From: a virus
Virus record (IMG/VR): IMGVR_UViG_3300046454_000268
Coordinates: 1-23,433 of that record
DNA length: 23,433 nt
Direction: 5' to 3' (one strand)
Shown here: positions 2 through 19,222 of the stretch, one piece after another
How the letters are laid out: every line of letters starts with the position of its first letter
Numbering within the stretch: the first letter of the stretch is position 1
Position numbers and translations under genes: made by a program
Notes under the pieces: model-generated
Told to the model about the DNA's origin: nothing
Database searches by the model: none
Seen by the model: only the letters and a program-made list of their open reading frames with translations

Positions 2-12
2 CCTAAATTAGG
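2..12. repeat. 11-bp palindrome CCTAAATTAGG
   Basis: The sequence CCTAA-A-TTAGG is a perfect inverted repeat with a one-base centre. It overlaps the stop codon of the capsid gene. The same palindrome with a different centre base (CCTAA-C-TTAGG) occurs at 5202-5212 beside a promoter. It could be a regulator binding site or chance; nothing here proves a function. Confidence 0.35.
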
Positions 13-922
13 CAGTCGGGAATTCGCCCCAAGCCGCGCGTGGGTCATTGATGCCGAACGAATACCTCTCGTAGGCCTTGACCAGTAGGTTGTCAGTCAC
101 GTTATCGACCCACATGTCGCTCTCGTAAGGAATACGAAGCATGTGGATGAGGCCCTCGATGTTCGTGGTCAGGAACCATGCGAAGTTCGAAGTGAGGAAG
201 TCGAGGACGATGTGACCTTCCGGCAGACCACCGGAGAGGGAAAGGATCGCATTGACGTCGTTGTCTGCCGTGCCGGGGCGCAATTCCGTCTTGGTTAGGC
301 GGATGGCGATGCCTTCCAGATTCGGCGGCACAACCAATCTGCGGGCGCGGGCGAGGATGCGGAGGCCTCGTTCATTGACGAACTGAACACGCACGTTCGT
401 CATGTCCGCGAGCAATGTCGATTCATTGAGTGACTTCGGCGTCGATGAGGTGTTTGCCCATGTGCCGCCATCGAATGGATGCGATGTGGAAAAGAAGGCC
501 ACGCCATCGCCAACCTGAGACGAGTTGTATGTGGTGCCGAGGTTGAAGATGTTCGCGGCCTGAATTTCCTTGAACTGTGCAAACGCTTCCTGCAGTTTCA
601 GATTTGTTGGATTGAATTGCGCCTTGTACAGCAGGTCGTCGATCGCCTTTCGGGTGATCGCATAGCCCAAAGCCACTTCGATATGCACGAACGCCCACGT
701 AAATCGCTCGCCAGCAGCGTTGTCGAACTGGGTCGCTGCGCCCTCGTCCTTCAAATAGGGCAAGGCAACGAAGGCCATTTGCGTTGATCGCTCAACAGCC
801 ATGGACGACTTGTGGGTTTTGAAGACCTTGTCCCACTGTCGTGGAATCATGTCGTAGCTACCGCGGACGTCGAACAATCCGGGGAGTAGTTCTGACCTGA
901 TATTTGCTAATGCGACCGGAAT
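8..922 (-). CDS. Major capsid protein (HK97 fold), probable AUU start
   Basis: This is the major head subunit that builds the icosahedral shell. The 304-residue product resembles the Mu gpT-like or HK97-type capsid proteins of many phages. Recognisable parts are an N-terminal stretch reading LLPGLFDVRGSY, a central segment with SHPFDGGTW, the VVPPNLEGIA block, the LRPGTADNDVNA block, and a C-terminal KAYERYSFGINDPR ending. The usual start codons give only a TTG at 877, which would remove the conserved N-terminus. The reading frame continues upstream to an ATT at 922, five bases after a perfect AGGAGG; the next in-frame codon but one upstream is a stop (TAG). I therefore prefer AUU as the start, which is inference. 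The gene lies downstream of a strong hairpin and follows the probable decoration gene. The window ends just after its stop, so tail genes would be expected to the left. Confidence 0.9.
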   Translation of the reverse strand: MPVALANIRSELLPGLFDVRGSYDMIPRQWDKVFKTHKSSMAVERSTQMAFVALPYLKDEGAATQFDNAAGERFTWAFVHIEVALGYAITRKAIDDLLYKAQFNPTNLKLQEAFAQFKEIQAANIFNLGTTYNSSQVGDGVAFFSTSHPFDGGTWANTSSTPKSLNESTLLADMTNVRVQFVNERGLRILARARRLVVPPNLEGIAIRLTKTELRPGTADNDVNAILSLSGGLPEGHIVLDFLTSNFAWFLTTNIEGLIHMLRIPYESDMWVDNVTDNLLVKAYERYSFGINDPRAAWGEFPTA

Positions 923-990: not shown

Positions 991-1590
991 TTAGGCCACG
1001 CCAGATGTTGCACCCAGCTTGTACCGTTGGTTGTTGAAGGCCACGATGACCCAGTTGTAGTTCGTTGTCGGATCGGAGCCGTTACCCACGCCCGGATAAA
1101 GCGACACGATCTGGAAGGCTGCTGTCGTATTCATCAGCGACTGGTCGACGACGTATGTCGAGAAAGCGCCGCCAACCGTGGTGCCACCGGCACCCGTGCT
1201 GTAACCAATGCAGTTGCCGATCGCTGTCGCAGGGACTGGCGTCAGGAGCGCCGCAACGCGGAAGAGTGCGTTTGGAGCGTCGATGACGTATGCAGTCGCG
1301 TCTGAGCCGACAGAGGCCGGGAAGTATGGCGACCATGCCGGTGTGCCGCCTGTCGGCGTATACTGGCATCCGTAGAAGATGCCTGAAATTGCCGTACCGG
1401 CCGCACCACCACCCGTGCCTACTGACGGGATGATGTATTGCGACGTCGCTGATTTGCAGACCGGATCACCAAAGTAGATCTTGGTCGCATACGACGACTG
1501 GATTTGATATTTCGAAAGCTGATAGTCCGGTGCACCTCCGGGGAGGTATCCAAAATGCTGGAAACCAAATTGCGCCTGTGTATTGGCCAT
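991..1590 (-). CDS. Probable head decoration or minor structural protein
   Basis: The 199-residue product resembles a common family of small phage structural proteins encoded next to the major capsid gene. Features typical of that family, as I recall it, are the N-terminal FGFQHFGYLPGGAPDY region, an IYFGDPV segment, a long Gly/Ala/Thr-rich beta-type middle, a segment with AYVIDAPNALFRV, and the ending WVIVAFNNQRYK. There are no membrane segments. The ATG at 1590 follows an AAGG about nine bases upstream, which lies within a small hairpin (CCGAA/TTCGG). The gene is preceded by about 200 bases of non-coding, hairpin-rich leader and followed by the capsid gene. A decoration or head-stabilising role is inferred from the location and the fold-like composition; direct virion evidence is lacking. 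Confidence 0.65.
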   Translation of the reverse strand: MANTQAQFGFQHFGYLPGGAPDYQLSKYQIQSSYATKIYFGDPVCKSATSQYIIPSVGTGGGAAGTAISGIFYGCQYTPTGGTPAWSPYFPASVGSDATAYVIDAPNALFRVAALLTPVPATAIGNCIGYSTGAGGTTVGGAFSTYVVDQSLMNTTAAFQIVSLYPGVGNGSDPTTNYNWVIVAFNNQRYKLGATSGVA

Positions 1591-1793: not shown

Positions 1794-2666
1794 TCATTCT
1801 GCGGCTTGCAGGATCTCGACAGGTGGCAATGGCGTCTCAGGTGTCACGATCGCGGTCACAACGGCCTGTGGACCGACTGTACTGACCGGAGGATCGATCG
1901 CTGGTTGACCTGCCATGCCGACTGCGGCGATGGCTTTTTCATCCATTGGCTTGACGTCATTCATGGGTGCTGCCTGTTCGTACATGTCGAGATATCGACC
2001 TGCATAGTCGAACGGACCCACATGGCTCATGCGATAACCGATCGCAGCCCATGTCTTTCCGCCGCATCTTTGCCAACGCAAACAAAAGGATAGGTCCTCA
2101 GACACTACGCCGCGCTCGGGCAGGTCGAGTTTTTCGAAGGCTCTGATCAGGCGCGTTGTGCCAGCAGCCTTGAGGGTCTCACCGGCCGGATGAAGGGATA
2201 ATCTCGTGTCGACCAGTTCAGGCATCTTCTCAAGCATGGTCTTGACGAGGTCTCGCCTGATCAAGGTGCAGCCCATGCCGACGCCTTCGACCAGCATGAA
2301 ATTGCCCCGGCGCTCTGTGTGTGCCGCTCCAGTTCCTGAGCCAGCCCAAGACAGCGGCATTTTTCTCTGTGGATAAATCGTCCCGATCAGGGGTTCGTCG
2401 AACAAAATCATGTCCGTGACGATCTCGGGCGGGAAGCCCATGTCGGCGTCAATGAACAGGAGATACTCGACATCAGGCATGGTGTCGTACCAGATGGTCA
2501 GGGCCATGCCGCGTAATTCAGCGATATCGGGGAATGAAAGCGTGCTGATGCCGCCTCCCATGCCCTTTGAATTGAGGTGCTGCCTGATGCCATGCGTGGT
2601 CAGGAAGGTCGTTGCCGTGATGGTCTGGCCGAATGCAGGAACGAAAATAAAGACGTTTTTCGACAT
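1794..2666 (-). CDS. GT-A glycosyltransferase (GT2/Anp1-like)
   Basis: This 290-residue protein is probably a nucleotide-sugar glycosyltransferase. It opens with a short beta strand (VFIFVPAFG), followed by the metal-binding DAD at residues 73-75 in LLFIDADMGFPP. A later SEDLSFCLRW block around residue 200 resembles the acidic catalytic region of GT-A enzymes. A Pro/Val-rich tail ends the protein, and no membrane segment is seen. The ATG directly abuts the TAA of the upstream methyltransferase gene, so the two are likely co-translated. It is the last gene of the sugar cassette before the capsid genes. Similar proteins occur near capsid genes in other phages, to my recollection. The donor and acceptor are unknown; glycosylation of a virion protein or of host surface glycan are both possible. 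Confidence 0.75.
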   Translation of the reverse strand: MSKNVFIFVPAFGQTITATTFLTTHGIRQHLNSKGMGGGISTLSFPDIAELRGMALTIWYDTMPDVEYLLFIDADMGFPPEIVTDMILFDEPLIGTIYPQRKMPLSWAGSGTGAAHTERRGNFMLVEGVGMGCTLIRRDLVKTMLEKMPELVDTRLSLHPAGETLKAAGTTRLIRAFEKLDLPERGVVSEDLSFCLRWQRCGGKTWAAIGYRMSHVGPFDYAGRYLDMYEQAAPMNDVKPMDEKAIAAVGMAGQPAIDPPVSTVGPQAVVTAIVTPETPLPPVEILQAAE

Positions 2667-3419
2667 TTAGGCGACTTTCTGGGTTTGGGGTTGAGTAAGG
2701 TTTGGCAGCGCGCCTTGGCCGATCTCAACCTTGTCGGGGATATCCGTGAAGAAGGCCCCGCCAGAGATTGCCGATTGATCCATTGCATCCTTCAGGATCT
2801 TTGAATAATCGCGCGTTATTACGAAGTCTGGACCGCTCTTGATGTGCTTCCAGTTGATCCTGTCTTGCCATAGCAGATATGTATTCCACAGCTTTGGCCC
2901 CTGCCTGAGCCAATCCGCGAGCATCTCCTCGGAGAACCTGACGTATTCGATGATCGGATACTTCGCGATCAGGCGAAGCTCTCCCTCATGATTCCAGACG
3001 ACGTATCTGTGGTGGTGATAGCCACGAAACGGAGGAGATGCCCCGTCCACGCCTCTGGTCAATTCTGCGATCGGTGATGGCGTCTCGACGTATCCAGCCT
3101 TGCCGACACGGCTCATCTCGTCGATGAGGGGGAATGGATTGTACATGTCCTCAAGGACATGTCGACAGTAAATAAAGTCGAAACTCTTGTCCTCGAATGG
3201 AAGTTTGTTCACATCCAGATCAAGACTGATCAGCTTGTCAGTTTCGACCGGCACTGGCCTGTAATCCACGGACATGGTTGCCCGTGGGAATGGCACATAT
3301 CCGGGACCGATTTCGAGAACCTTTGCTCCTTCCGGGATCTTGTTGCACAACCACTGAACGACTGTTTCTACGGGGGGCCAGAATTTCTTATCACTGTCTG
3401 TCAAAGCGCTTGACGACAT
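2667..3419 (-). CDS. SAM-dependent methyltransferase, class I
   Basis: The 250-residue product has the class I methyltransferase signature VLEIGPG near residue 35, followed by an acidic LDVNKLPFEDKSFDFIYCRHVLED segment, here split as LDVNKLPFEDKS and FDFIYCRHVLED. This matches the Methyltransf_11 group. It probably methylates a sugar or small molecule made by the cassette. Two ATGs are possible, at 3431 and 3419. I chose 3419 because a GGAG lies six bases before it, whereas 3431 has no ribosome site. Either start overlaps the end of the TPP enzyme gene, implying translational coupling. A His-rich YHHHRYVVW stretch follows the fold core. The exact substrate cannot be assigned; a heptose or branched sugar intermediate fits the neighbours. 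Confidence 0.75.
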   Translation of the reverse strand: MSSSALTDSDKKFWPPVETVVQWLCNKIPEGAKVLEIGPGYVPFPRATMSVDYRPVPVETDKLISLDLDVNKLPFEDKSFDFIYCRHVLEDMYNPFPLIDEMSRVGKAGYVETPSPIAELTRGVDGASPPFRGYHHHRYVVWNHEGELRLIAKYPIIEYVRFSEEMLADWLRQGPKLWNTYLLWQDRINWKHIKSGPDFVITRDYSKILKDAMDQSAISGGAFFTDIPDKVEIGQGALPNLTQPQTQKVA

Positions 3420-5190
3420 CAGGTACTCCATGGGTTTCAGGGTTCATATTCGACGCAAACTCCTCGCGTGGGAGGTAGGGCCACAGATCAGCGATATCCG
3501 TGGGGACAAACTTTCCGTTCTCGGTCTTGGCTTGGACACGAGGTGCAATCACTTCATGCGGGTCCATATGCATGACGATCAGTACGGGAACCTGCGCGGC
3601 CGTATCAAGTAGGCTTTGCAGGGAATGCGACAACAAGTTCAGTGAATTGAATTCTCGCGTGAGAATCCCGAATGCCTTTGCAATCTTTGTGAAGTCTGGA
3701 AGGCTCAGGCCAGACCTTGGACCAGACATCACCTCTCGCTTGAAGTGATTGTTCTGTGCGATCTTCATGGTGGCATAGCCATCGTTCTCATAAACGAAGA
3801 TGGCAATCGGAAGCTTGTGGTGCGCTATCGTCTGCAATTCCTGCAGGTTCATCATCGCGCCGCCATCTCCCGTGAGACAGACGATCTGCCTTTTTCCATC
3901 CGCAGCGAAGGCAGCACCGATCGCAGCAGGAATACCCCAGCCCATGGGGGATACACCGGCAGAATGGATCAACCTCTGCCCTGATCTCAATTTCATTGTC
4001 TGGAATGTCGGGATGAAGCAGAAACCGACATCTGTGACGACGATCGCGGTATCTTCCAGTTCGTTGGTCAGGCTTTGCACAAATCCGTATGAACTGATGC
4101 CTGTGGTTGGTTGTTTCCATTCAGGCTTGTATTTTTCCTTCATTTCGAGGCAACGATGCATCCATAAATCTAAGCGCGAGAATGGCCTAAGGGCCTTCAG
4201 AAATTCTTTTGCATCTGCCTTGATACCGATGTCTGCATAGATTGTAGGTTTCCGATGCAGTTCGTTATCGTCTATGTCGACGACGATCTTCTTGGCGTTC
4301 TTGGCGAACAATTTTGATGCATGGCCAATCTGGGCCACAGACAATCTTGTACCGATAGCCAAGATCAGGTCTGCATTCTGAACTGCAAAGTTTGCTGCCC
4401 TGTCTCCAAATATCCCACAACGACCAACATAGTATGGATGCCCTGTCGGCATGATATCTGCCGCACCCCACGAAGAGACGACAGGAATTCCAGCCTTGTC
4501 GAAAATACGACGAAACTCTTCGATCGCTCCAGCAAGCCTTACTCCGTTTCCAACAATAACAACCGGCCGCTTTGCCCCACTCAGTTCCTTCTGAACTATC
4601 AGAGCATTGGCTTCCAATTCCATACTCGGTGGATAATATCCGGTATTGTCAAATCCGATTAATGCATCCGGGTCTATCTCTGCAGCCTGAACATCAAGCG
4701 GTATCTCAACAAATACCGGCCCCTTCCTGCCGTTCGTTGCTACACAAACAGCATGCTCAAGAACGTGACGAATTGTATCCGGCCGATCGACAGTGGTTGC
4801 TGACTTAGTCAACGGCATCATCAGGCTAACCATGTCGAGTTCATTCATACCGACTTGTCTGGTGCCCGTTCCCGGCATCATCGTATGGCTTGTCACCTGT
4901 CCGGCGATGATCAACATGGGAATGCTATCGACATACGCACACGCAACGCCAGTCATTGCATTGGTGCCGCCCGGACCTGCCGTGACACTGACAACGCCGA
5001 TATTGCCCGTGACCCGCGCATCGGCCTCCGCAGCCATCGCTGCAGCTTGCTCGTTCTGCATCGAGATGACCTTGATGCCGGGATGATTGGCAATCGCGTC
5101 ATTGAGATGCATGGCACCGGCCCCGCAGACGCCGTAGACCCTTGGCGTGATGCTGGCGATGTACTGGGCCACATAGTCGCTTAAACGCAT
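3391..5190 (-). CDS. Acetolactate-synthase-like TPP enzyme
   Basis: This 599-residue protein has the three domains of the acetolactate synthase family. The N-terminal pyrimidine-binding domain carries the activating glutamate E47 in QNEQAAAMAAEA. The central domain has IVGNGVRLAG. The C-terminal domain has the TPP-binding motif GDGGAMMN (441-448) with N469 in ENDGY. The ending, LPREEFASNM, is like that of homologues I recall from O-antigen clusters, not from valine biosynthesis. Related enzymes such as YerE add a two-carbon unit from pyruvate to a keto sugar to make branched sugars, so that is the preferred role here. Decarboxylation of another 2-keto acid is the alternative. No regulatory subunit gene is nearby. 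The start at 5190 faces a divergent promoter region. Sampled GC is about 45-47%, below the head genes. Confidence 0.85.
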   Translation of the reverse strand: MRLSDYVAQYIASITPRVYGVCGAGAMHLNDAIANHPGIKVISMQNEQAAAMAAEADARVTGNIGVVSVTAGPGGTNAMTGVACAYVDSIPMLIIAGQVTSHTMMPGTGTRQVGMNELDMVSLMMPLTKSATTVDRPDTIRHVLEHAVCVATNGRKGPVFVEIPLDVQAAEIDPDALIGFDNTGYYPPSMELEANALIVQKELSGAKRPVVIVGNGVRLAGAIEEFRRIFDKAGIPVVSSWGAADIMPTGHPYYVGRCGIFGDRAANFAVQNADLILAIGTRLSVAQIGHASKLFAKNAKKIVVDIDDNELHRKPTIYADIGIKADAKEFLKALRPFSRLDLWMHRCLEMKEKYKPEWKQPTTGISSYGFVQSLTNELEDTAIVVTDVGFCFIPTFQTMKLRSGQRLIHSAGVSPMGWGIPAAIGAAFAADGKRQIVCLTGDGGAMMNLQELQTIAHHKLPIAIFVYENDGYATMKIAQNNHFKREVMSGPRSGLSLPDFTKIAKAFGILTREFNSLNLLSHSLQSLLDTAAQVPVLIVMHMDPHEVIAPRVQAKTENGKFVPTDIADLWPYLPREEFASNMNPETHGVPDVVKRFDRQ

Positions 5191-5201
5191 TGATTTACCT
5201 G

Positions 5202-5212
5202 CCTAACTTAGG
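5202..5212. promoter_or_regulatory. Palindrome CCTAACTTAGG, possible operator
   Basis: A perfect CCTAA/TTAGG inverted repeat lies two bases upstream of the TTGACA box and 12 bases upstream of the TPP enzyme start. Its position between divergent genes suits an operator, and the same palindrome occurs at 2-12. No regulator gene is recognised in the window. Confidence 0.35.
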
Positions 5213-5214
5213 TG

Positions 5215-5243
5215 TTGACAGACTAGGGCAAATACCCCATATT
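5215..5243 (+). promoter_or_regulatory. Sigma70-type promoter for plus-strand gene pair
   Basis: A perfect -35 box TTGACA (5215-5220) is followed by 17 bases and CATATT (5238-5243), which matches four of six -10 positions. It points at the gene starting at 5276. It is the best promoter match noticed in the window, and would let this pair be expressed by host RNA polymerase independently of the late operon. Confidence 0.6.
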
Positions 5244-5275
5244 CCGATTATTGAGACAAACCACTGGGGATTACG

Positions 5276-5509
5276 ATGACAGCGATGGACCCAAAACAGC
5301 AACTGCTTCGGTGGTTCAAGGCTGAATATGCTGGTCGCACTGCTGCGGTCAAGAACGGCACTGCCAAGATTGACTGGATCGTTCCTGAGTATCGCATCAC
5401 TTGGTCAGAGATAATGTCAAAGGCTAGAGACCTCGGCATCAATGACAACATCGTTGATCTGCGGTGGTGGTGGGGAAGCACATCAGAAGCAAAGAAGAGA
5501 CGCAAATGA
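5276..5509 (+). CDS. Small basic protein of unknown function
   Basis: I do not recognise this 77-residue protein. It contains a Lys/Arg-rich C-terminus (SEAKKRRK), a Trp cluster (DLRWWWGS) and a helical N-terminus (PKQQLLRWFKAEY). It has no membrane segment or known motif. The ATG at 5276 is preceded by GGGG six bases upstream, a usable ribosome site, and lies about 33 bases after the promoter -10 box. Its stop overlaps the start of the next gene in an ATGA. It is one of only two plus-strand genes in the window and splits the minus-strand sugar cassette. The independent transcription and small size fit a phage moron, expressed outside the lytic late programme. Nucleic-acid binding is conceivable from its charge but unproven. 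Confidence 0.7.
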   Translation: MTAMDPKQQLLRWFKAEYAGRTAAVKNGTAKIDWIVPEYRITWSEIMSKARDLGINDNIVDLRWWWGSTSEAKKRRK

Positions 5510-5697
5510 CCACCAAAGACCAACTCGAATTAATCGTCGACCGCATCGGTCTCAAGAACGCGGTCGAACTCCTCGCCATCATCTGCGAGGAGAAGGCCGA
5601 ACACATTTCCAGTAACTGGCAGGATGAAATCCTGTCCAAGGACTGGACCCGCTCCGCAAGAGCACTCGACAAGTCAGCAGGAAGGATTGAGGTCTAG
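5506..5697 (+). CDS. Small conserved protein, moron pair member
   Basis: This 63-residue protein begins with a helix reading KDQLELIVDRIGLKNAVELL and contains the stretch HISSNWQDE and a SARALDK ending. It resembles short hypothetical proteins I recall from phages and Alphaproteobacteria, whose function is unknown. The ATG at 5506 overlaps the previous stop as ATGA, so translation is probably coupled; an upstream in-frame start at 5464 would lie deep inside the first gene and is less likely. The stop TAG at 5695-5697 shares the palindrome CTAG with the stop of the convergent radical SAM gene. A terminator hairpin follows 23 bases downstream. The product is soluble and mostly helical. Confidence 0.75.
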   Translation: MTTKDQLELIVDRIGLKNAVELLAIICEEKAEHISSNWQDEILSKDWTRSARALDKSAGRIEV

Positions 5698-6848
5698 AGA
5701 AAGCCTAAGTGCGGAGGTGCAGACGCTGTCGGGAAACTGACAGCGTCTTTCATATATTTATTGAGCCATGAGTTCGTGTTCGTCTGCAGACAATTCTCGC
5801 CGCAATCCTTCTGGGCATCGAACTGATCGCTCGCCAGATAGTTCAGGACTTCCCAGTATCGATCGCTTTGGTAGATATCTCTGAACCTGTCTCGGGTGAT
5901 GTTGCCAATGTGGAACTTGGCATACTTCGAATTAAACTTCTGACCACATGGCGCGATCAGGCCGTTTCCTGACATTTGAAGAATGAACGGAGGACCGTAG
6001 CAGCGTTGGTAGTCGCGCTTGCCCTCATCCTGAATGCGAGACCATTTCACAGCCACGCGGAATGAATCATCGCTGTATGTCTCGGCCTCTTCGAACAATG
6101 GAAACAGGTCGCTGTACTGCCGATAGTCGACGTCGAGATCGCCATCAACGGAATTGGCGCAGTGCTTCATGATGGCGTAGTCGGGACGGATTTCCTTGCA
6201 CAGTTTTGCAAATGGAAGGATCTGATCGCCATCCTTCGGCATAACAACAAATTGCATATTTATATTGCATTTCAAGTTGTCGCGCTTCTTGATCTCGATC
6301 GCCTTCTTGATGTGCCCAACGATGCGATCAAACAGAGGCTGCTTGAGACCCATGATCTGTGCCCAGCGATGCTTGTCGCCACCGCTGAAGTTGAAGCGCA
6401 GATAGGTCAGGTGAGGAAGGATTTTTTCTAAGACTTCCGGTGTCAGCTTAAGACCATTAGAACTTGTACCGATCTGGAGGCCTAGCTTGTTTCCATACTC
6501 CACCGACTCGGCAAAGTATGGCACTTCGGTCGACTCACCATCGCTGATCAGGCTGACACCCTTGACGCCGATCTCGGCTGCATCCTCGAGATAATCGAAG
6601 GCATGTTTCTTGGTGATGATGGTATCTTCGCTCGCTTGCAGGGACGCATAGCAGAAGTTACAGGCCGCGGCGCATTTGCGTGTCCATGCCACATCCATGG
6701 TGACAGGCGCTATGCGCTCGCCACGCTTCCATGCCTCGACACGATCCCGGTAGAAACCGATCTTGGTGCCGTCAAGCTGCAAATTATAGACGGGTGCCGG
6801 TTTCTCAAGAGCTACGGCCGCATGGAATTCCGGCATGGTGGCTGTCAT
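5694..6848 (-). CDS. Radical SAM protein with SPASM-like C-terminus
   Basis: This 384-residue enzyme has the radical SAM iron-sulfur motif CxxxCxxC as C59, C63 and C66, followed by Y67, in KCAAACNFCY. A VSLISDGEST segment stands where the SAM-binding GGE motif is normal. The C-terminal third has cysteines C283, C301, C349 and C353, typical of a SPASM-type auxiliary cluster. Radical SAM/SPASM enzymes modify peptides, sugars or cofactors. Here the neighbours are sugar enzymes and no short precursor peptide is evident, so carbohydrate dehydrogenation, epimerisation or C-methylation chemistry is suggested, not shown. The start at 6848 has an AGGAGA ribosome site that overlaps the stop of the upstream methyltransferase gene. 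Its 3' end contains the terminator hairpin that serves the opposing genes. Confidence 0.85.
   Translation of the reverse strand: MTATMPEFHAAVALEKPAPVYNLQLDGTKIGFYRDRVEAWKRGERIAPVTMDVAWTRKCAAACNFCYASLQASEDTIITKKHAFDYLEDAAEIGVKGVSLISDGESTEVPYFAESVEYGNKLGLQIGTSSNGLKLTPEVLEKILPHLTYLRFNFSGGDKHRWAQIMGLKQPLFDRIVGHIKKAIEIKKRDNLKCNINMQFVVMPKDGDQILPFAKLCKEIRPDYAIMKHCANSVDGDLDVDYRQYSDLFPLFEEAETYSDDSFRVAVKWSRIQDEGKRDYQRCYGPPFILQMSGNGLIAPCGQKFNSKYAKFHIGNITRDRFRDIYQSDRYWEVLNYLASDQFDAQKDCGENCLQTNTNSWLNKYMKDAVSFPTASAPPHLGFL
5721..5750 (+). terminator. Intrinsic terminator inside radical SAM 3' end
   Basis: Perfect 10-base arms AGACGCTGTC and GACAGCGTCT flank an 8-base loop and are followed on the plus strand by TT and CATATATTTATT. 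It would end transcripts of the plus-strand pair. On the minus strand it lies within the last codons of the radical SAM gene (residues KDAVSFPTAS), without a T-tail in that direction. Confidence 0.65.
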
Positions 6849-6857
6849 TTCATTCTC

Positions 6858-8222
6858 CTAATACGCGCCGATTTTTTTAATGTCGGTCAAGATATTGATC
6901 AGGTTCTTCAGGACCGGATCGTGATTAATGCCCTCTGTCACGCTGGCCAGAAACATGATTTCCTTCGGGCATGGGAAGCGATTGGAATTATGGTTTGCAC
7001 ATACGATAGCGATGAACTTCTCGGCGTTTCCAACCAAAGGGTCCTGCCGCAATAACTCGAGGCCTTCCAGATATGTCGCCCGATTGAAAAAGCCACCCTT
7101 GAGGACAGACCAGTCAGAGAACTTCTGCTGCGGCTCGGCGCGTTCGTAGATCACTTCGGCAAAATCTCGCCCTGCACACATCACCTTGACGAGAGGAATA
7201 TCGGCATTGACCGATCGTGTCGCCCATTGATTTGAGGGTCGTGGTGCCCAGAACGTCCTGCTCTCCCACAGGTATGAGATGTCCTGACCCATGTAGTTCA
7301 GCGAGTAGAAAAACCGTGGCTGGTATGTATCGAGCCACCGCATGTAGAACGTCACCCAGTGATCATTCATCTCCTGCAGGGAGCCGACATTGATCACGAG
7401 GTCGCTGAGTTTCTTGTATTCATCCAATCTATTGACGGGGAGAAGAACAATCCTCGTACCGGGATCGCTTCCATCCCAGTAACCGACATCATCGCCAAAT
7501 TCATCCCGCAGACAGACCTCCGAGTAGAACAGGGACTCTGGCAGGTCAGCGATCACATAACGCTTGATCTTGATCGACTTGTTAAGCATCCAGAGTCTGG
7601 CGAGACCTCCATAGCCGCCGCCGATTTCAATAATACTCTCTAGTGGCCTGATGTCCTTCTGGCATCGGAACATGACCCGCATGTGCCAGTAGAAGATATT
7701 GCTGACGAGACGATCGTATGACGGGAATAGCGTCTCAGGAATCGACTTTGAATTATCAGACAGGCTTGATTGTAAACCCCAGAATGTCGGAAATTCGTGT
7801 TCGATGATCTTCTCGTACTTTTCGTTGATGCCGCCGTCTGCCTTCTCCCTGTGATCGAACGGGATCTGCCTCTGGGCAAAATGAAGTACGTCACGGCATG
7901 AGGTGAATGTCTTGGCCTGTTCGTAGTATTTGTCTGCCCATGACGACCAGCGCGAATCGAAACTGCCTTCTTCGCGCTCGACAGGCATCGGTAGCTTGCG
8001 TGATGCTTCGAGATGGGAAAGCGCAGTAGCAATAATATCCCTGTCTTTATCGCTTCCCGGATCAATGGCTGTTGCCGTCTCAAGCCAACGCCTGTGAGAG
8101 GCCATAGCCTCTGCTTTTTTCTTCTTTCCCTTCAGGTCATCTGCGAGGGTTTCCTCGACACTGTCGGTCTCACCCAACATGTATCGTTCACCATCGATCG
8201 CGGAGACAACAACACTCCTCAC
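6858..8222 (-). CDS. Putative sugar O-methyltransferase
   Basis: The 454-residue product carries a methyltransferase motif I, IIEIGGGYGGLARL, at residues 197-210. This form is characteristic of the putative sugar O-methyltransferase family (TIGR04371 as I recall). Further family-like parts are RYVIADLPESLFYSE and LVINVGSLQEM. It probably transfers a methyl group from SAM to a sugar hydroxyl. The first 90 residues are charged and less conserved-looking. The GTG at 8222 overlaps the previous stop (GTGA), and I prefer it. An ATG at 8180 is an alternative that would shorten the protein by 14 residues. It lies immediately upstream of the radical SAM gene, with only nine bases between. Such methyltransferases often cap or tailor lipopolysaccharide sugars. 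Confidence 0.8.
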   Translation of the reverse strand: MRSVVVSAIDGERYMLGETDSVEETLADDLKGKKKKAEAMASHRRWLETATAIDPGSDKDRDIIATALSHLEASRKLPMPVEREEGSFDSRWSSWADKYYEQAKTFTSCRDVLHFAQRQIPFDHREKADGGINEKYEKIIEHEFPTFWGLQSSLSDNSKSIPETLFPSYDRLVSNIFYWHMRVMFRCQKDIRPLESIIEIGGGYGGLARLWMLNKSIKIKRYVIADLPESLFYSEVCLRDEFGDDVGYWDGSDPGTRIVLLPVNRLDEYKKLSDLVINVGSLQEMNDHWVTFYMRWLDTYQPRFFYSLNYMGQDISYLWESRTFWAPRPSNQWATRSVNADIPLVKVMCAGRDFAEVIYERAEPQQKFSDWSVLKGGFFNRATYLEGLELLRQDPLVGNAEKFIAIVCANHNSNRFPCPKEIMFLASVTEGINHDPVLKNLINILTDIKKIGAY

Positions 8223-8422
8223 AATTTGGCTCTTTGCTCTGCCGTCATCATCATGCGGAGTTTTGAATCGTCTCCCTTGTTGTCCTTAAATACCTCGACA
8301 CGCTGTCCGGTTCGAGCACGCAAATCACGCTCGAATTGTAGCATCGCAGCACCATGAAACTCTGCCGGGATGTCTGATCCGAAGCGGACGACGACATGCA
8401 ATGGATGCTCAATCGATGGCAT
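8219..8422 (-). CDS. Small hypothetical protein, 67 aa
   Basis: I do not recognise a function for this 67-residue protein. It contains FGSDIPAEFHGAAMLQFE, RTGQRVEVFKD and DDSKLRMMMTAEQR, resembling short phage proteins of unknown role. I chose ATG 8422 because it follows a perfect AGGAGG by six bases; a GTG at 8437 overlaps that ribosome site and is less likely. The start lies inside the end of the SIS isomerase gene (14-base overlap), and the stop overlaps the GTG of the next gene. The overlap on both sides marks it as an integral part of the sugar operon. It could be a subunit or chaperone for a neighbour, but this is only inference from position. Confidence 0.7.
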   Translation of the reverse strand: MPSIEHPLHVVVRFGSDIPAEFHGAAMLQFERDLRARTGQRVEVFKDNKGDDSKLRMMMTAEQRAKL

Positions 8423-8975
8423 GCTTGGCCTCCTCACGCTTCATTAATTCGTCCAAGAAACCATGCAGGATGGCCATGTGGACGTTTTCGACTACGCCGT
8501 AATTCATCGATGGGACGTAGAAATTAGCCCCGCCTCTGCCACGAAGCCTGTTGCCGCGGATAAAACCGCTCAGTGTCACAACATTGAGACGAAGTCTCTT
8601 GGCAAGATCGACTGCCTCAAGGATGCTTTCACTCTCGCCTGAACTTGATATTGCGAACAGAACGTCGCCAATGCGTCCATGGTGGGACAGGGGATGCCTA
8701 AATACACTTTCATACCCGATGTCATTGCTGATGCATGTCAGGGACGCAGCATCATTGAAACACAGCGTCGAGAAGCCACCGTTCTTCTGGTAGTCAGCCG
8801 CCATGTGGCTGGCGATCGCGGCTGAACCACCATTACCGATGAAGATCAGCCTTGGGGCGTGCCCAACGGGGGCCTGACGCACCATGTCGAGATAACCGAA
8901 TACTGAACCGTATCCGTGGTCCTCAACCTCGACACCCTCCAGCGCGAAGGCAATGTCGGCGTAGAATTGTCTCAT
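8409..8975 (-). CDS. gmhA: Phosphoheptose isomerase-like SIS protein
   Basis: The 188-residue product is a single SIS domain of the GmhA type, which converts sedoheptulose 7-phosphate to heptose 7-phosphate, the first step of ADP-heptose formation. It has GNGGSAAIASHMA at residues 48-60, the phosphosugar-binding SSSGES at 110-115, and a C-terminal ENVHMAILHGFLDE helix with H171, resembling the catalytic helix of GmhA. The region after the first motif reads AADYQK where GmhA proteins usually have a glutamate, so the substrate may differ. The start overlaps the HldE-like stop as ATGA, coupling it to the next enzyme expected in the same pathway. The length is close to that of bacterial GmhA. Other SIS isomerases cannot be excluded. 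Confidence 0.8.
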   Translation of the reverse strand: MRQFYADIAFALEGVEVEDHGYGSVFGYLDMVRQAPVGHAPRLIFIGNGGSAAIASHMAADYQKNGGFSTLCFNDAASLTCISNDIGYESVFRHPLSHHGRIGDVLFAISSSGESESILEAVDLAKRLRLNVVTLSGFIRGNRLRGRGGANFYVPSMNYGVVENVHMAILHGFLDELMKREEAKHAID

Positions 8976-10363
8976 GCCAAGAGCGCCTCGACAGTTTGAA
9001 TAATCTCTTGCCTGTTAACGTGCCGACGATGTCCGATGATGGACGTCTTGATGGCACCCGTGATGTTTCCGACGAAGGCTGCGATCTCAAGAGGCAATCC
9101 CGTCGCGATCAATGGCGCAGTCACGGCCATAACCGCATCACCGGCACCCATGGTGTCGATGCCTCCGGTCGAAAATGCGGGAGCCTCACCGAAACGCAGG
9201 TCCTCCCGCCACATCGAGCCGAACCTGCCATGCGTCACCAGAAACTTATGGCACGCGATGCGGGACGACAGCCCATCTCTGATCACACGATCGATCGGCT
9301 CTTCCTGCATGCCAGCAGCGAGCCTCGCTTCTGGATCATCGACGCAGATATAATCGGCCCTTTCGTACTTGGTGACAAGGTTGAAACCATAGTTCCCGGC
9401 ATTGCTCTGAGCGTTAACTGCCAGAAAATCAGCCTCATTGAGGATACCGCGTTCTTCAGGACCAATCAGGCCGTGTCCGAAATCCATCACGACAACGACG
9501 GATGATCCCTTCACCACATCGCAGAGATGCGATCGGAAATGACGCCGTGCGGTATCAGAAAAATGAATCTTGCGAGCAGAATAGACATCAAAAAGTTTGC
9601 GATTAAAATCACTGTCAACGTATCGGGTCTTTTTGATGGGCTGGCAGGATGTTGCCATCCACTCAGAGGTTTTCCATTCAGCATGTTTGCTTGCAGCGAT
9701 TGAGCCGCCCTCGAATTGCTCGACGCCAACCTCCACGGTCGCGAGCATCATTTCTTTTGAGGATTTACCCAAGCCTTTCACATACCGGTATTCGTCGATA
9801 ATCACTTCGCCAACGAATGAAACCTTGATGACGTCTGCCTGATCAAATGCACTGAGGATCTTGTCCTTGAACCCTGCCGCCTTTGCCTTTTCGAGATACT
9901 GGCAGACTTCGACAGAGAACATTTCTGCTTTTAGGATCTTGCTGGAAGAGAACTTCTCGCTATCGGTAAAGACTATTTTGCCCCCAACAGCTTCCACGGC
10001 CATTCTCTCAATAGCCAGCCCTGCGCCAGCATCTTCCTTGTAATCTGCTCCTTTGACGTAGATTGCTGGCTTGACCTGAGAGATGACTGGAACTGCATCC
10101 CGACTGGGATTGATGATGACTTCATCAACACACGATAGAGCGCGGAGAGCCGCTGCCCTTTGTTCTGCATTGAAGTGTGGCCTCCCGATGCCTTTTGAGA
10201 CGTATGGATCGTCCGTGACGCTCACCACGAGGCGATCGCCAAGCTTCCTTGCCTCTTGCAGATGCCTGATGTGGCCTAGATGAAGAAGGTCGAAGCAGCC
10301 ATGCGCGAGGACCGTGCGCGGTGCCGTGACGAGATGGTCGACAGACCAGACGCCGTTCTGCAT
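8972..10363 (-). CDS. HldE-like nucleotidyltransferase-kinase, domains reversed
   Basis: This 463-residue protein joins two heptose-activation domains. Residues 15-150 are a nucleotidyltransferase with HGCFDLLHLGH (21-31, HLGH nucleotide site), YVKGADYKED and FSSSKIL. Residues 178-463 are a ribokinase/PfkB domain with GEVIIDEYRY, a GGSIAAS segment and the signature DTMGAGDA (403-410, D409 as base). In E. coli HldE the kinase comes first; here the order is reversed. The likely job is to phosphorylate a heptose phosphate at C1 and then couple it to a nucleotide. No GmhB-type phosphatase is present in the window. I chose ATG 10363 because it forms TAATG with the upstream stop; a GTG at 10378 is possible. 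The kinase half is diverged, so the sugar may not be the usual heptose. Confidence 0.85.
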   Translation of the reverse strand: MQNGVWSVDHLVTAPRTVLAHGCFDLLHLGHIRHLQEARKLGDRLVVSVTDDPYVSKGIGRPHFNAEQRAAALRALSCVDEVIINPSRDAVPVISQVKPAIYVKGADYKEDAGAGLAIERMAVEAVGGKIVFTDSEKFSSSKILKAEMFSVEVCQYLEKAKAAGFKDKILSAFDQADVIKVSFVGEVIIDEYRYVKGLGKSSKEMMLATVEVGVEQFEGGSIAASKHAEWKTSEWMATSCQPIKKTRYVDSDFNRKLFDVYSARKIHFSDTARRHFRSHLCDVVKGSSVVVVMDFGHGLIGPEERGILNEADFLAVNAQSNAGNYGFNLVTKYERADYICVDDPEARLAAGMQEEPIDRVIRDGLSSRIACHKFLVTHGRFGSMWREDLRFGEAPAFSTGGIDTMGAGDAVMAVTAPLIATGLPLEIAAFVGNITGAIKTSIIGHRRHVNRQEIIQTVEALLA

Positions 10364-10470
10364 TACCAATATCGCCACGTTGCCGCGATCGTAACCACAA
10401 TCATCACAAGACCAACCGAACTGCCAATTACAATCCCCATTCCATACGAAAATGCCAAATCAGACGTCAT
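10363..10470 (-). CDS. Single-helix membrane peptide, 35 aa
   Basis: This 35-residue product is almost entirely one hydrophobic helix (about residues 8-31, MGIVIGSSVGLVMIVVTIAA), ending in TWRYW. Its ATG overlaps the glycosyltransferase stop (ATGA), and its stop overlaps the ATG of the HldE-like gene (TAATG). The double coupling supports real translation despite its size. It is the only membrane protein in the sugar cassette and could tether the enzymes or act in the host envelope. No family is recognised. Confidence 0.65.
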   Translation of the reverse strand: MTSDLAFSYGMGIVIGSSVGLVMIVVTIAATWRYW

Positions 10471-11381
10471 GCGAATGCCTGTTTGAGCGCAGGGATCGAT
10501 GTCGGTGGCGTCAGAACGGCCCTGAACATGGATTTCTCGAGGTCTGGCATCTCAGGATCATCCAATAGCGTCGACAGCATGTCGATCGCCTTCTGCTTGA
10601 TGCGAAGGTATCGCTCTTCCTTCAAACTCAGGATCGATTGTGGTGTCTGCTGACGCACAAAACCATTCAACGTGCGCGATCGTGACTCGATAATCGGATG
10701 ATGCGCGCGTAACAGGTCCTTCTGCCACTCTGGACTGACAAAATCACTGCTGTCGATGATGGCACGAGCCTCTCGACGACGCTTGAGGTAACAGGCATCG
10801 AAGAAGAACGTCCAGAAGTTGATTTCTCGACGCTCCATAGTATCAGGTGCCTTGCTCTGATCCGTCCTGATGTCTGCAAACGATATGCGGCCGATTGTTC
10901 TGACAACATCATCAGTCCAGTGATCGCAGAACCAGTATGGAAAATGCTCTGGCTGGATATAACCAAGCATGTCTGCCATCTTCCGCGTCATTGAGAGCGA
11001 ACCAGTGAAGCTTAAGTTAGCCAGATGTCCGTAGACCATCCCAATTCCGTCAGGGAACCGTCTGGCTGCCTCAAGTATCTTATCGTCATATCCGTGTGTG
11101 ATGTAGGGATCGTCGTCTCCAGCCACTGAGTAGATATCAGCCGGAATTGATAATGCGCGGTTCCACTTGGCAGCAATAGTGTCCTCTCGTTTCTGCACGT
11201 TGAGGAGCACGCGGTCGCCGAAGTTGGCTTTAGTAAGTGCGTCGAATGTGGCTGGGTCATCATGATCGATCTGAACCTGCATGACCGTGTTTTTATTAGT
11301 CCAGTTGACGATCGATCGCTTGATCGTATCGACAACCTGTACTGGCCGACTGCGTGTCGCCAGCGAGATCACAAGGTTCAT
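10467..11381 (-). CDS. GT-A-like glycosyltransferase
   Basis: The 304-residue protein starts with a short strand and loop (MNLVISLATRSRP) typical of family 2 glycosyltransferases. It has a nucleotide/metal-binding acidic cluster GDDD at residues 88-91 in IYSVAGDDDPY. A later WFCDHWTDD segment and basic C-terminal helices follow. No membrane segments are seen. It would transfer a sugar from an NDP donor, presumably the product of the adjacent HldE-like enzyme, to an unknown acceptor. The ATG lies directly after the TAA of the preceding structural gene and has a GGGAG ribosome site. It is the first gene of the sugar cassette, so the cassette begins without any gap in the head operon. It is not obviously a paralogue of the second glycosyltransferase at 1794-2666. 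Confidence 0.7.
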   Translation of the reverse strand: MNLVISLATRSRPVQVVDTIKRSIVNWTNKNTVMQVQIDHDDPATFDALTKANFGDRVLLNVQKREDTIAAKWNRALSIPADIYSVAGDDDPYITHGYDDKILEAARRFPDGIGMVYGHLANLSFTGSLSMTRKMADMLGYIQPEHFPYWFCDHWTDDVVRTIGRISFADIRTDQSKAPDTMERREINFWTFFFDACYLKRRREARAIIDSSDFVSPEWQKDLLRAHHPIIESRSRTLNGFVRQQTPQSILSLKEERYLRIKQKAIDMLSTLLDDPEMPDLEKSMFRAVLTPPTSIPALKQAFA

Positions 11382-12074
11382 TTACTCTCCCGGATCGGCC
11401 AGCGTGTGTGATGGTGCCGGGATATCAAGGCCCTTATCGATGCTCATTCGAATGTCGCCGCCCGTGCCACGATATCTCTGGTTCATCTCGAAACCATCAG
11501 GCATACCCTTGCGAACGCCAGCAAGCTTCAGGGATTCATTCCTGTCGGAGATCTGTTTCTTGGCAAGGCGGATATCTTCTGCCCTTGCTTGTTGAGACAG
11601 AACAAGAGGTCTCTCTTCAAGTCGCATGCCGCCACGCAGGATATCGCCCTTTGCATTCGGAGGAACCAAGATGCCAGCATGACGCTCGGCCGGAACAGGA
11701 CGCCAGCCATTGGTATACATCTGGTGCGACTGTTCACGAACAATGTCGGCATTGCCATGAACGGAGACGGAATTCCACTGATAATCCCAATCTTTCGGGA
11801 TCATGTGCAATGGAACATCAAAGCTGTCACCGACGTTTGTATGCGAGCGCGACAGCCTCTCGCCGTTGCGTCCGAGTACCTCGCCAGCTTGTCCACGTAC
11901 TGGTGTACGAGCGGCTTGTCGCGCGGCAGCTTGCTGTTCGATGCCTTCATCGAGCGGGACCTGAGGCTCGACAGACATGGGTTGGTTCGCTGCAGCGATA
12001 CGCTTTGCAGCCTTGGCCTCGCGTGCCCTCTTCAGGCTTTCGGCGCGCGGATTTACCTTCTGGATCTCGTCCAT
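11382..12074 (-). CDS. Conserved phage protein, probably virion-associated
   Basis: I do not know the function of this 230-residue protein. It is rich in Arg, Ala and Gln, with a charged helical N-terminal half and a central block FDVPLHMIPKDWDYQW followed by SVSVHGN and WRPVPAERHAG. Comparable proteins occur between scaffold and capsid genes in other phages, to my recollection. The best start is ATG 12074, which has GAGGGA five bases upstream; a GTG at 12086 overlaps the scaffold stop and would make this ribosome site part of the coding sequence. A structural or assembly role is inferred only from location. The final gene of the head-assembly block before the sugar cassette, it marks the right-hand insertion boundary. 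Confidence 0.7.
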   Translation of the reverse strand: MDEIQKVNPRAESLKRAREAKAAKRIAAANQPMSVEPQVPLDEGIEQQAAARQAARTPVRGQAGEVLGRNGERLSRSHTNVGDSFDVPLHMIPKDWDYQWNSVSVHGNADIVREQSHQMYTNGWRPVPAERHAGILVPPNAKGDILRGGMRLEERPLVLSQQARAEDIRLAKKQISDRNESLKLAGVRKGMPDGFEMNQRYRGTGGDIRMSIDKGLDIPAPSHTLADPGE

Positions 12075-12082
12075 GTTATCCC

Positions 12083-13054
12083 TCACTGGGTTTCATAGGT
12101 GCGGTCATATGCACCCTGCTGGGTCAATTTCTGCTTTCGCCTCGCAAATTCCTGTACGCCAATCGGATCGCCCTTCTTGAACTTCTTCTGTGGATCGTCG
12201 TAATTCCAGACATGCGTACCATCGGTCGCCGCCGCGGCTTCCCGCGCACTCAATCTCACTTCGTTGCTCGCAGGTGATCCGCCATTGGCCGATGAATTCC
12301 CCACGGGTGCCACTGCTCGCTGTGCCGGTTTTTTCTTCTCGGCTCCCGGACGCTGCACATCGTCACCCTCCGTGACAGGCGCAGCGTCCTTCCTGAGACC
12401 GATGTGTTTCTCGACGTACTCGAAGTATTCCTTGGTATCAGGCGCGAGATCATCCGCCACAGCGGCATAGTGCGCGGCCGTCAATTTCCTGTTCTTGGAT
12501 GGATCAATGACAAATTCGCGATGTTCCCGCAACCAGTTCGCTGTCTCTGTTGTACGCCCGCGAACATAGGCCTCGACCGGATCGATCGGTGCCTTCGGAG
12601 GTGCAGCCTTTCGTGCCTCGAGATTGCTCTTGGCCTCGTCGTAGGTGCGAATGTCAATGCGGGCCTGAATCAGCCTTTCGTCCGCTTCGCTTTCGGCATC
12701 GAAGTCACCGGCTTCGCGGGCGACCTTCTTGTCCCTCTTTGCAGCGTCAGCCAGAGCCTGAGCAGTAGCGAGCGCTTGGGTGATGGTGTCGAGGTTTGAA
12801 CTGGTTGCTTCTCGCCTTGCGGTCTCTGCTTCGTGTCTTGCGGCTTCTGCTGCTCGTTCCGCTGTCGCAGCGCGCTCAAGAGCTTCCGATCTTTCTTTTT
12901 CATGGGATTTCGATTTCGCCTCCAGTTCCTTGAACTGCTCGGCCAAGTCAGTGACGGCAGCATCCTTGGGTTCTACGGCCTCAGGTGCATCGACCTTGAC
13001 GACGACGTCAGGCAATTCAGGCTGTTCGTCGATCTTGACTGCTTCTTCTGCCAT
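12083..13054 (-). CDS. Probable capsid scaffolding protein
   Basis: The 323-residue product is highly charged, Ala/Glu-rich and predicted helical. A long coiled coil spans roughly residues 35-145 (for example FKELEAKSKSHEKERSE). A disordered linker rich in Pro, Lys and Gly follows, then a basic C-terminal region with DPQKKFKKGDP and FARRKQKL. Such composition, together with a position between portal and capsid genes, is typical of scaffolding proteins that direct procapsid assembly through a basic C-terminal capsid-binding segment. No protease domain is seen, so scaffold removal would be by another route. The ATG follows an AGGGG ribosome site. It shows little sequence conservation beyond composition, hence moderate certainty. 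Confidence 0.65.
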   Translation of the reverse strand: MAEEAVKIDEQPELPDVVVKVDAPEAVEPKDAAVTDLAEQFKELEAKSKSHEKERSEALERAATAERAAEAARHEAETARREATSSNLDTITQALATAQALADAAKRDKKVAREAGDFDAESEADERLIQARIDIRTYDEAKSNLEARKAAPPKAPIDPVEAYVRGRTTETANWLREHREFVIDPSKNRKLTAAHYAAVADDLAPDTKEYFEYVEKHIGLRKDAAPVTEGDDVQRPGAEKKKPAQRAVAPVGNSSANGGSPASNEVRLSAREAAAATDGTHVWNYDDPQKKFKKGDPIGVQEFARRKQKLTQQGAYDRTYETQ

Positions 13055-13064
13055 GGCTTGACCC

Positions 13065-13514
13065 CTAGTAAATCAGCGACGGATCGGATACCCGCGCCTT
13101 GATAAGCGAATCCTCGATCAGGCGGCATGCCAGACCGTCATTGCTTTGTCCGAGATGGTCCTTGATGAACATTTCCATGCCATCGGATGGGCGATACATC
13201 ACCCAGTCTCCGGGTTCGATCGATACGCCGCCGAAACGTGCGGATGCATCATCGATGAATGCCAATGGCCCGCATTTGAGCACAAGGCCGACTTTGCCCT
13301 GAAAGCGGTCCTCCATCAGGCTCTTGTCGCTAAGATGAAACTCAACAACCTCGCCCTTTGGGCCTTTCATCTTCTTGATCGGAGGCACATAAGTCGCGAC
13401 CAGAACAAAGTTATGAAATATCTCGTATTCCGTCATCGGCCCTGCTCGCTCGAGCAGTGCCTGTTTCGGATCGAATGACGCAGCTTGCGCTATCGATCTG
13501 AGGTCTACGCGCAT
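13065..13514 (-). CDS. GroES-like (Cpn10-fold) phage protein
   Basis: The 149-residue protein has the pattern of a Cpn10 beta-barrel. It runs FHNFVLVATYVPP, a mobile-loop-like region with GPKGEVVEFHLSDKS, RFQGKVGLVLKCGPLAF, and EPGDWVMYRPSDG, which resembles the conserved end of GroES. Its C-terminus continues past the barrel with CRLIEDSLIKARVSDPSLIY. Related proteins appear in head-gene clusters of several phages. T4 gp31 sets a precedent for a phage co-chaperonin that helps fold the capsid protein with host GroEL. That role is inferred, and a structural role in the virion is the alternative. The ATG directly abuts the previous TAG. The gene lies just before the scaffold gene, which suits a folding helper for head proteins. 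Confidence 0.65.
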   Translation of the reverse strand: MRVDLRSIAQAASFDPKQALLERAGPMTEYEIFHNFVLVATYVPPIKKMKGPKGEVVEFHLSDKSLMEDRFQGKVGLVLKCGPLAFIDDASARFGGVSIEPGDWVMYRPSDGMEMFIKDHLGQSNDGLACRLIEDSLIKARVSDPSLIY

Positions 13515-18574: not shown

Positions 18575-19222
18575 TCAAACTAACAGACCAAATTTATCAC
18601 GAACAAATTCAATTGGGTCATGAGCACCCTTTGATTGATTGCATGGACCACACAGAAGCTGAAGATTTCTCTTGTTATTCCATCCACCACGAACCAACGG
18701 CACTACATGGTCAACGTGATACTTCATAGTCGATTTTGATAATTCTACTCGACAATAAGCGCATTTACCATGCTGCGCCTGATAAATCTCCTCAACGTCC
18801 TGAGATGTAAAAGTGCCGCCATTACGTAGCTTTAAGGCACGCCTTTTATGAACCCTCGCAATATCCCTTGCCGGATCATCCTTGTATCTGGCGCGAGCAA
18901 GTCGGCGCTTTCTTTCTTTAGTCGCTGGCAAAGCATTATTCTGCTTCTGCCATTCCGCCTTCTTCTTCCTAAACAATTTCGATCTGGCTAGGTCCGAATG
19001 TATCTTGGCCACGCACTCTCTAACTGCCTTGTTTCGTTTTTCGCGCTTTGCTGGATTGGCTCGAGATACTCTTGCATAACCAGCATTCAGCGATCTTTCA
19101 CATTCAATGCACAAACCATTTGTTGTTCTGCGCTCGGATATATGCCCGCACTTACATGGTTTGCCGGTAAAATATTTAACCAGCCCAAGTTCTTTCGCCT
19201 TTCCTCGTAGGACTATATTCAT
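18575..19222 (-). CDS. HNH endonuclease, probably a free-standing homing gene
   Basis: The 215-residue protein has an N-terminal zinc site (C23, C25, C38, C41), a long Lys/Arg-rich linker for DNA contact, and a C-terminal HNH nuclease. The nuclease shows CAYC (154-157), YHVDHVVPLVRGG with H169, D171 and H172, and LLCGPCNQSKG (C191, C194). The linker resembles NUMOD-like or AP2-free homing enzymes of phages. It cuts DNA, and may spread itself into related phages lacking it. Its start overlaps the TerL stop (ATGA). Base content and codon use are visibly more AT-rich than in surrounding genes, and the AT-richness extends about 150 bases into the 3' end of terL, which suits horizontal arrival. 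It may alternatively assist packaging, as HNH proteins do in some cos phages. Confidence 0.85.
   Translation of the reverse strand: MNIVLRGKAKELGLVKYFTGKPCKCGHISERRTTNGLCIECERSLNAGYARVSRANPAKREKRNKAVRECVAKIHSDLARSKLFRKKKAEWQKQNNALPATKERKRRLARARYKDDPARDIARVHKRRALKLRNGGTFTSQDVEEIYQAQHGKCAYCRVELSKSTMKYHVDHVVPLVRGGWNNKRNLQLLCGPCNQSKGAHDPIEFVRDKFGLLV

Follow-up and report, generated by a model that had tools for sequence, protein, structure and literature searches.

Both the capsid and the tail tube of mycobacteriophages are glycosylated (Freeman et al., 2023, cited in PMC12619734). In bacteria, FlmG of Caulobacter is a cytoplasmic O-glycosyltransferase that glycosylates flagellins (PMC7591256), and the host-recognition islands of pelagimyophages, with their rfaE, glycosyltransferase and radical S-adenosylmethionine (SAM) genes, have been read as a means of host O-chain modification (PMC7029224). 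Here we consider a cassette of predicted sugar and glycosylation genes in the 23,433-base virus record IMGVR_UViG_3300046454_000268, the whole of which is referred to as the window. An earlier note on this DNA had claimed eight enzyme genes at 1794-11381, and all of them are there, on the minus strand, but the list was incomplete, as a ninth conserved gene, g8219, had been overlooked. It is established that these genes form a conserved, selected and head-embedded sugar module. We give a probability of roughly 0.6 to the reading that the cassette acts late, making a C-branched sugar related to heptose that is then placed on the surface of the virion, a reading in which we infer the sugar, the order of the steps, late expression and the acceptor.

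A sugar module embedded in the head operon

The head genes of the window all lie on the minus strand, in the order small terminase, large terminase, portal, GroES-like gene, scaffold-region pair, cassette, dec (a capsid cement/decoration-fold gene) and major capsid gene. Within the cassette the order is glycosyltransferase GT1, HldE-like gene, GmhA-like gene, g8219, NanM-type O-methyltransferase, radical SAM/SPASM gene, thiamine diphosphate (ThDP or TPP) enzyme, class I methyltransferase (MT11) and glycosyltransferase GT2. Searches with the capsid and portal proteins yielded 160 related loci, in most of which the scaffold-region gene g11382, dec and the capsid gene are adjacent, while one clade carries the cassette exactly between g11382 and dec. 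The earlier note had described scaffold-region and capsid genes as usually adjacent and had proposed searching related phages for the gene order with and without the cassette; the first is borne out because the flanking genes are neighbors in 31 classified cassette-less relatives, and both arrangements were found. In the annotated relative MW202675.1, scaffold and capsid are not separated by such genes. In a tree built from four head proteins of 53 phages and rooted on cassette-less phages, those with the cassette and those with only glycosyltransferases at this position (GT-only phages) formed one clade (SH-aLRT 99). Since the GT-only phages nest inside the cassette-bearing ones, the history of the sugar genes reads most simply as one probable gain and a later loss in which the glycosyltransferases were kept.

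Two ways in which the cassette could have been dismissed were named in the earlier note, and both are contradicted. An assembly chimera is rejected as two contigs from sample 3300046718 (L002 and L082) match the window at 100% across both ends of the insertion, and about 30 further contigs have their genes in the same order. Inactive remnants are rejected given that catalytic motifs are invariant and that dN/dS for the cassette enzymes, where measurable, is 0.014-0.17, indicating strongly purifying selection; many pairs involving the window were saturated in dS, and closer pairs of relatives were used instead. The invariant motifs include HxGH and G-GD of the HldE-like protein (15 phages), D73xD75 of GT2 (18 phages), and CxxxCxxC (C59, C63, C66) together with C283, C301, C349 and C353 of the radical SAM enzyme (16 phages).

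Other features ascribed to the cassette fared less evenly. Translational coupling fits several junctions, with g11382/GT1 and MT11/GT2 abutting (GT1 starts immediately at the g11382 stop) and HldE/GmhA and g8219/NanM overlapping by 4 nt, but not those with gaps of 88 nt (GT1-HldE), 203 nt (GT2-dec) and about 500 nt. The contrast in GC put at 45-50% against 60% turned out to be slight: the cassette measures 52.3%, the region from g11382 to the large terminase gene (TerL) 54.8% and positions 1-1793 55.5%, and the third-position GC ranges overlap. A recent foreign block judged by GC was thus rejected, the contrast being 2.5 points.

Some variation within the family was also observed. Between L237 and L265 the HldE, E1a, MT11 and GT2 proteins are 97-99% identical, but the radical SAM enzyme is 69% and GmhA 76% identical; therefore pieces of the cassette seem to be exchanged by recombination. 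The cassette of L163 encodes at 7346-7960 a 204-aa protein that is Cas7-like by eye, with no Pfam match, and a TROVE/Ro60-like protein (PF05731, E 2e-15) is encoded between GT2 and dec at L170:18814-20118 (IMGVR_UViG_3300010401_000036). One cassette-bearing phage contig (L274; CAIZGQ010000073.1) was binned in a Rhizobiales metagenome-assembled genome, which weakly hints at an alphaproteobacterial host.

A putative route to a branched sugar

The predicted enzymes can be arranged into a conditional route. The GmhA-like isomerase and the HldE-like kinase/nucleotidyltransferase would yield a nucleotide-activated, heptose-related sugar, and a sugar-branching thiamine enzyme would put a carbon branch on the keto form of that sugar. 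The radical SAM/SPASM enzyme, with g8219 as its small partner, may then introduce a further radical change, and the methyltransferases would cap the product. Finally, two GT-A-type glycosyltransferases would attach the sugar to the outside of the capsid, with the cement-fold protein whose gene lies beside GT2 as the most likely acceptor.

The thiamine step is informed by a profile search with the radical SAM enzyme, which recovered 58 viral loci, of which 30 lie in head operons and 28 at other places. A ThDP enzyme was recognized in 54 of these: an IlvB/YerE-like enzyme in 17, an E1-type (dehydrogenase-type) pair in 36 and a split transketolase in one. IlvB-like enzymes and E1-type pairs were found together in 0 of the 58. 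Several of the loci lacking a ThDP enzyme end at a contig end, and L244 is the clear exception. All three ThDP classes branch, or have been proposed to branch, keto-sugars, the YerE-like enzymes in lipopolysaccharide (LPS) and the alpha-KADH2 pairs and split transketolases in secondary metabolites (PMC12247030, a 2025 review); sugar C-branching by such enzymes is also covered in PMC10338323. In a set of solved structures that does not include YerE itself, the window enzyme is closest to 8RPH (371 bits vs. 284 and 239 for acetolactate synthases), as is a second phage TPP enzyme (400 vs. 254 bits). 8RPH is JanthE, a YerE-like enzyme (PMC12188165). Because one slot is filled by three branching-linked classes and the nearest solved relative is JanthE, C-branching would be the most economical role for the TPP enzyme. 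Branched-chain amino-acid synthesis by the IlvB-like enzyme was also considered and judged unlikely, given JanthE as the nearest relative and the E1-type or transketolase enzymes that occupy the slot elsewhere.

The association of g8219 with the radical SAM enzyme is similarly tight, with g8219 accompanying it in 54/58 viral loci, typically right before the radical SAM gene. Conversely, 47 of 49 IMG/VR matches to g8219 occur with a radical SAM gene, and the other two (L177 and L180) are cut by the contig end before that gene would come. The motif DDSKLR..MT is invariant in 15 phages, and the C-terminal region is the most conserved. The idea that g8219 is a common phage protein was rejected, as the phage collection yielded nothing similar to it at E <= 1.

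The two glycosyltransferases of the earlier note are upheld on other grounds than domain matches, as neither has a Pfam match: GT2 is assigned by its predicted fold, and GT1 by a weak PHROG match and its grouping with GT2 (blastp). GT1 leads the cassette in relatives. The AlphaFold model of GT2 (pLDDT 78) has STIV A197 as its best fold match (Z 15.4), followed by the collagen galactosyltransferase group, and a capsid glycosyltransferase of chlorovirus PBCV-1 is among the listed matches.

The coordinates of these genes and of their neighbors are given in Table 1. The NanM-type O-methyltransferase is an accessory gene found in few relatives, also in L084/L085/L229 and L164. The pair of plus-strand open reading frames (ORFs) in the window is absent from the nearest relatives; in L003 and L229, which lack it, the radical SAM gene abuts the TPP gene, and no homologs of either ORF were found among the fetched loci. 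Outside the cassette, a GroES-like co-chaperonin gene lies between portal and scaffold at 13065-13514; it is widespread in this phage family and annotated as groeS in MW202675.1. HNH endonuclease-like genes are present inside the cassettes of L171, L172 and L174, and in the window beside the terminase at 18575-19222.

Table 1. Features of the cassette, its borders and associated loci (window positions unless a locus is named)
Feature	Position	Strand	Basis or remark
g11382, scaffold-region gene, upstream border of the insertion	11382..12086	-	dec directly next in cassette-less relatives
GT1, predicted glycosyltransferase, 304 aa	10467..11381	-	weak phrog_14945 glycosyltransferase match, E 1.3e-6
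HldE-like fusion, 468 aa, swapped order (nucleotidyltransferase N-terminal, PfkB kinase C-terminal)	8972..10378	-	PF01467 at 25-149, PF00294 at 340-446
GmhA-like SIS isomerase, 188 aa	8409..8975	-	PF13580; TIGR00441 E 1e-24, below cut-off
g8219, putative small partner protein of the radical SAM enzyme, 72 aa	8219..8437	-	conserved in phages, neighbor of the radical SAM gene
NanM-type putative sugar O-methyltransferase, 454 aa	6858..8222	-	TIGR04371 E 6e-18, above its cut-off
Radical SAM/SPASM enzyme, 384 aa	5694..6848	-	PF04055, PF13186
ThDP (TPP)-dependent enzyme, YerE/JanthE type, 599 aa	3391..5190	-	three TPP_enzyme Pfam domains; best solved relative 8RPH
Class I methyltransferase (MT11)	2667..3431	-	PF08241 E 2e-8; precedes GT2 in most full cassettes
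GT2, GT-A-fold glycosyltransferase, 290 aa	1794..2666	-	predicted fold; adjoins cement gene
dec, capsid cement/decoration-fold protein, proposed acceptor	991..1590	-	structural matches of model
Major capsid protein	8..877	-	phrog_371; annotated homolog in MW202675.1 61% identical
Two ORFs between radical SAM and TPP genes, ATGA overlap	5276-5509, 5506-5697	+	outside conserved cassette
Giant Ser/Thr-rich repeat proteins with a tetratricopeptide repeat (TPR)-GT41 gene close behind	L295:14-8506, L296:20-7419, L297:92-8509		

The target of the sugar and competing explanations

The late, head-linked pathway with glycosylation proposed in the earlier note is well supported, and of the two targets it named, the virion is favored over host LPS. 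This preference arises because GT2 adjoins the cement-fold gene, the GT-only phages keep their glycosyltransferases at the same place, GT41 protein O-glycosyltransferases co-occur with the module and a tyrosine integrase was not found in 12 relatives. Across the clade a glycosyltransferase lies between the scaffold and the cement/capsid genes. The best structural matches of the dec model are decoration, cement or head proteins of tailed-phage capsids (top Z 8.4, 4.0 A over 130 residues). In the three head-cassette phages with a GT41 gene, it lies close behind a gene for a 1,334-1,855-aa protein with 31-32% Ser+Thr.

A number of observations weigh against synthesis of a heptose-related sugar for the virion. 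The heptose-type character claimed earlier stands as far as GmhA- and HldE-like domains are present, but both proteins score far below the equivalog cut-offs (87 bits vs. 209 for GmhA and 115 vs. 521 for HldE), and neither GmhB nor a short-chain dehydrogenase/reductase (SDR) epimerase/dehydratase of the HldD type was found in 12 relative contigs, which may be fragments. The host could supply both; if it does not, the sugar cannot be true ADP-heptose, and the constant presence of the TPP and radical SAM enzymes would suggest a product different from plain ADP-heptose. The plus-strand ORFs interrupt the operon in the window, leaving about 500 bp between the radical SAM and TPP genes. For the acceptor, the structural matches of dec are moderate, though consistent, and an enrichment of Ser/Thr in dec of cassette phages as a sign of O-glycosylation was looked for and not seen. 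The association with GT41 (12/25 module-bearing vs. 0/25 module-less viral records, p = 9e-5) comes from a comparison that mixes phage types and is 3/12 vs. 0/25 (p = 0.03) within the head-operon family; such data favor the virion as target but do not prove it.

The most serious competitor, which we nonetheless regard as unlikely, is that the cassette remodels the host surface polysaccharide during infection, for example against superinfection or against virions sticking to debris. The same module occurs in surface-sugar loci of SAR11, and the glycosyltransferase and rfaE genes of pelagimyophages have been interpreted in this way (PMC7029224). However, the cassette sits in the head operon beside the cement-fold gene, neither a flippase nor a polymerase was recognized among its genes, and it is protein glycosyltransferases of the GT41 family that track the module. 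Lysogenic conversion is weakened by the failure to find a tyrosine integrase (PF00589) in the 12 relative contigs, other integration systems not having been searched.

In a considerably less probable account, the pair formed by the radical SAM/SPASM enzyme and g8219 modifies a peptide, as in the making of ribosomally synthesized and post-translationally modified peptides (RiPPs), and the sugar genes decorate that peptide. The nearest annotated relatives of the radical SAM enzyme do include the peptide maturases SkfB and PqqE, and its gene is immediately preceded, with few exceptions, by one for a small protein. Yet g8219 shows no evident leader/core layout, is best conserved in its C-terminal region and is longer at the N-terminus in its SAR11 homolog; no protease or exporter was recognized in the cassette, and in phages as in bacteria the accompanying genes encode sugar enzymes.

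Signaling by heptose metabolites is known from other systems, and the encoded pathway is incomplete, both of which would suit a product without a fixed glycan target, either a free small molecule or a modified heptose metabolite, whose effect on the host might be to block a defense. We consider this very improbable, as no head-operon cassette lacks dedicated glycosyltransferases, and these are what the reduced cassettes retain. The least credible alternative is that the sugar is placed on phage DNA as a shield from host nucleases, for although phage glycosyltransferases are able to glycosylate DNA (PMC12619734), the cassette lies in the head operon and the failure to find a thymidylate-synthase-family gene (PF00303) in the 12 relative contigs, which may be fragments, with the control positive in 9/14 genomes, argues against DNA glucosylation, a Tet_JBP search without a match being uninformative as it had no positive control.

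The module beyond the head operon and in relation to known systems

The core module, which comprises the GmhA-like protein, the HldE-like protein with swapped domains, one TPP enzyme, g8219 and the radical SAM enzyme, is distributed more widely than the head operons. Bacterial loci that match the radical SAM profile come chiefly from SAR11 (Pelagibacteraceae), with other alphaproteobacteria in addition. In the SAR11 clusters the radical SAM gene is preceded by a g8219 homolog with an N-terminal extension (HHalign probability 96.8%, E 2.7e-10), and there is an HldE-like protein whose domains are swapped in the same way (29% identity across almost the full length, E 3e-77). These clusters also contain a pyruvate-dehydrogenase-like E1 pair, a LegB-like SDR and PseC-like aminotransferases, a neighborhood that appears from its predicted genes to be of the surface amino-sugar kind. 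Some module-bearing phages likewise carry NeuB and a WbuX amidotransferase. In L252 and L262 the module occurs with NeuB, and in L252 also with the WbuX amidotransferase, which is represented in L262 by the same cluster, a nonulosonate-type set.

We tentatively suggest, as a possibility rather than an expectation, that a mobile module common to unrelated phages and SAR11 may make an undescribed sugar, thiamine-branched and modified by the radical SAM enzyme and g8219, which coats capsids and fibers, so that virion sugars would be related to those of bacterial surfaces. No description of the module was found in the literature searched, which took in few subscription journals. If the proposal is true, many LPS-like phage genes that are now interpreted as host-surface modifiers would gain a chemical identity, a branched sugar and a partner protein for radical SAM enzymes, both new, would come to light, and the purpose of a virion coating (hiding, stability or attachment) would become testable.

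How, then, does the cassette compare with what has been described? It shares with the ADP-heptose pathway (GmhA, HldE, GmhB, HldD) the isomerase and kinase/nucleotidyltransferase domains, but differs in the swapped domain order, in the sub-cut-off scores and in the GmhB and HldD-type epimerase that were not found in the 12 relatives. With the branching systems of yersiniose, eurekanate and miharamycin it shares the three ThDP classes (YerE-like, alpha-KADH2 and split transketolase), all of which fill its one slot. Those are LPS or antibiotic pathways that typically use 4,6-dehydratase-derived keto-sugars, whereas here the thiamine enzyme is combined with GmhA/HldE-like and radical SAM proteins in a phage. 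The pelagimyophage islands resemble the cassette in carrying similar kinds of gene in marine phages, but neither a TPP/g8219/radical SAM module nor a placement in the head operon is described for them (PMC7029224). The mycobacteriophage system is alike in having phage-encoded glycosyltransferases that act on virion proteins, although for the cassette the glycan is a predicted one; in that account (PMC12619734) no dedicated TPP and radical SAM sugar pathway between scaffold and cement genes was found described. FlmG (PMC7591256) offers the parallel of a cytoplasmic protein O-glycosyltransferase that uses a surface-type sugar, and GT41 enzymes are present in related module-bearing phages, but its system concerns flagellin and pseudaminic acid, and the window encodes GT-A enzymes rather than GT41. 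Capsid glycosylation in PBCV-1 also relies on virus-encoded GT-A glycosyltransferases, the fold matched by GT2, and on virus-encoded sugar enzymes. PBCV-1, however, is a virus of eukaryotic algae with other sugars and genes, while the cassette belongs to a tailed phage and is built on a bacterial-type module. Overall, virion glycosylation by phage enzymes is already known, and some parts of the cassette are without description in the searched literature. Few cases of glycosylated phage particles are known, and they have usually been traced to single glycosyltransferases; here a whole predicted pathway lies within the head operon and is held in common with SAR11-type loci.

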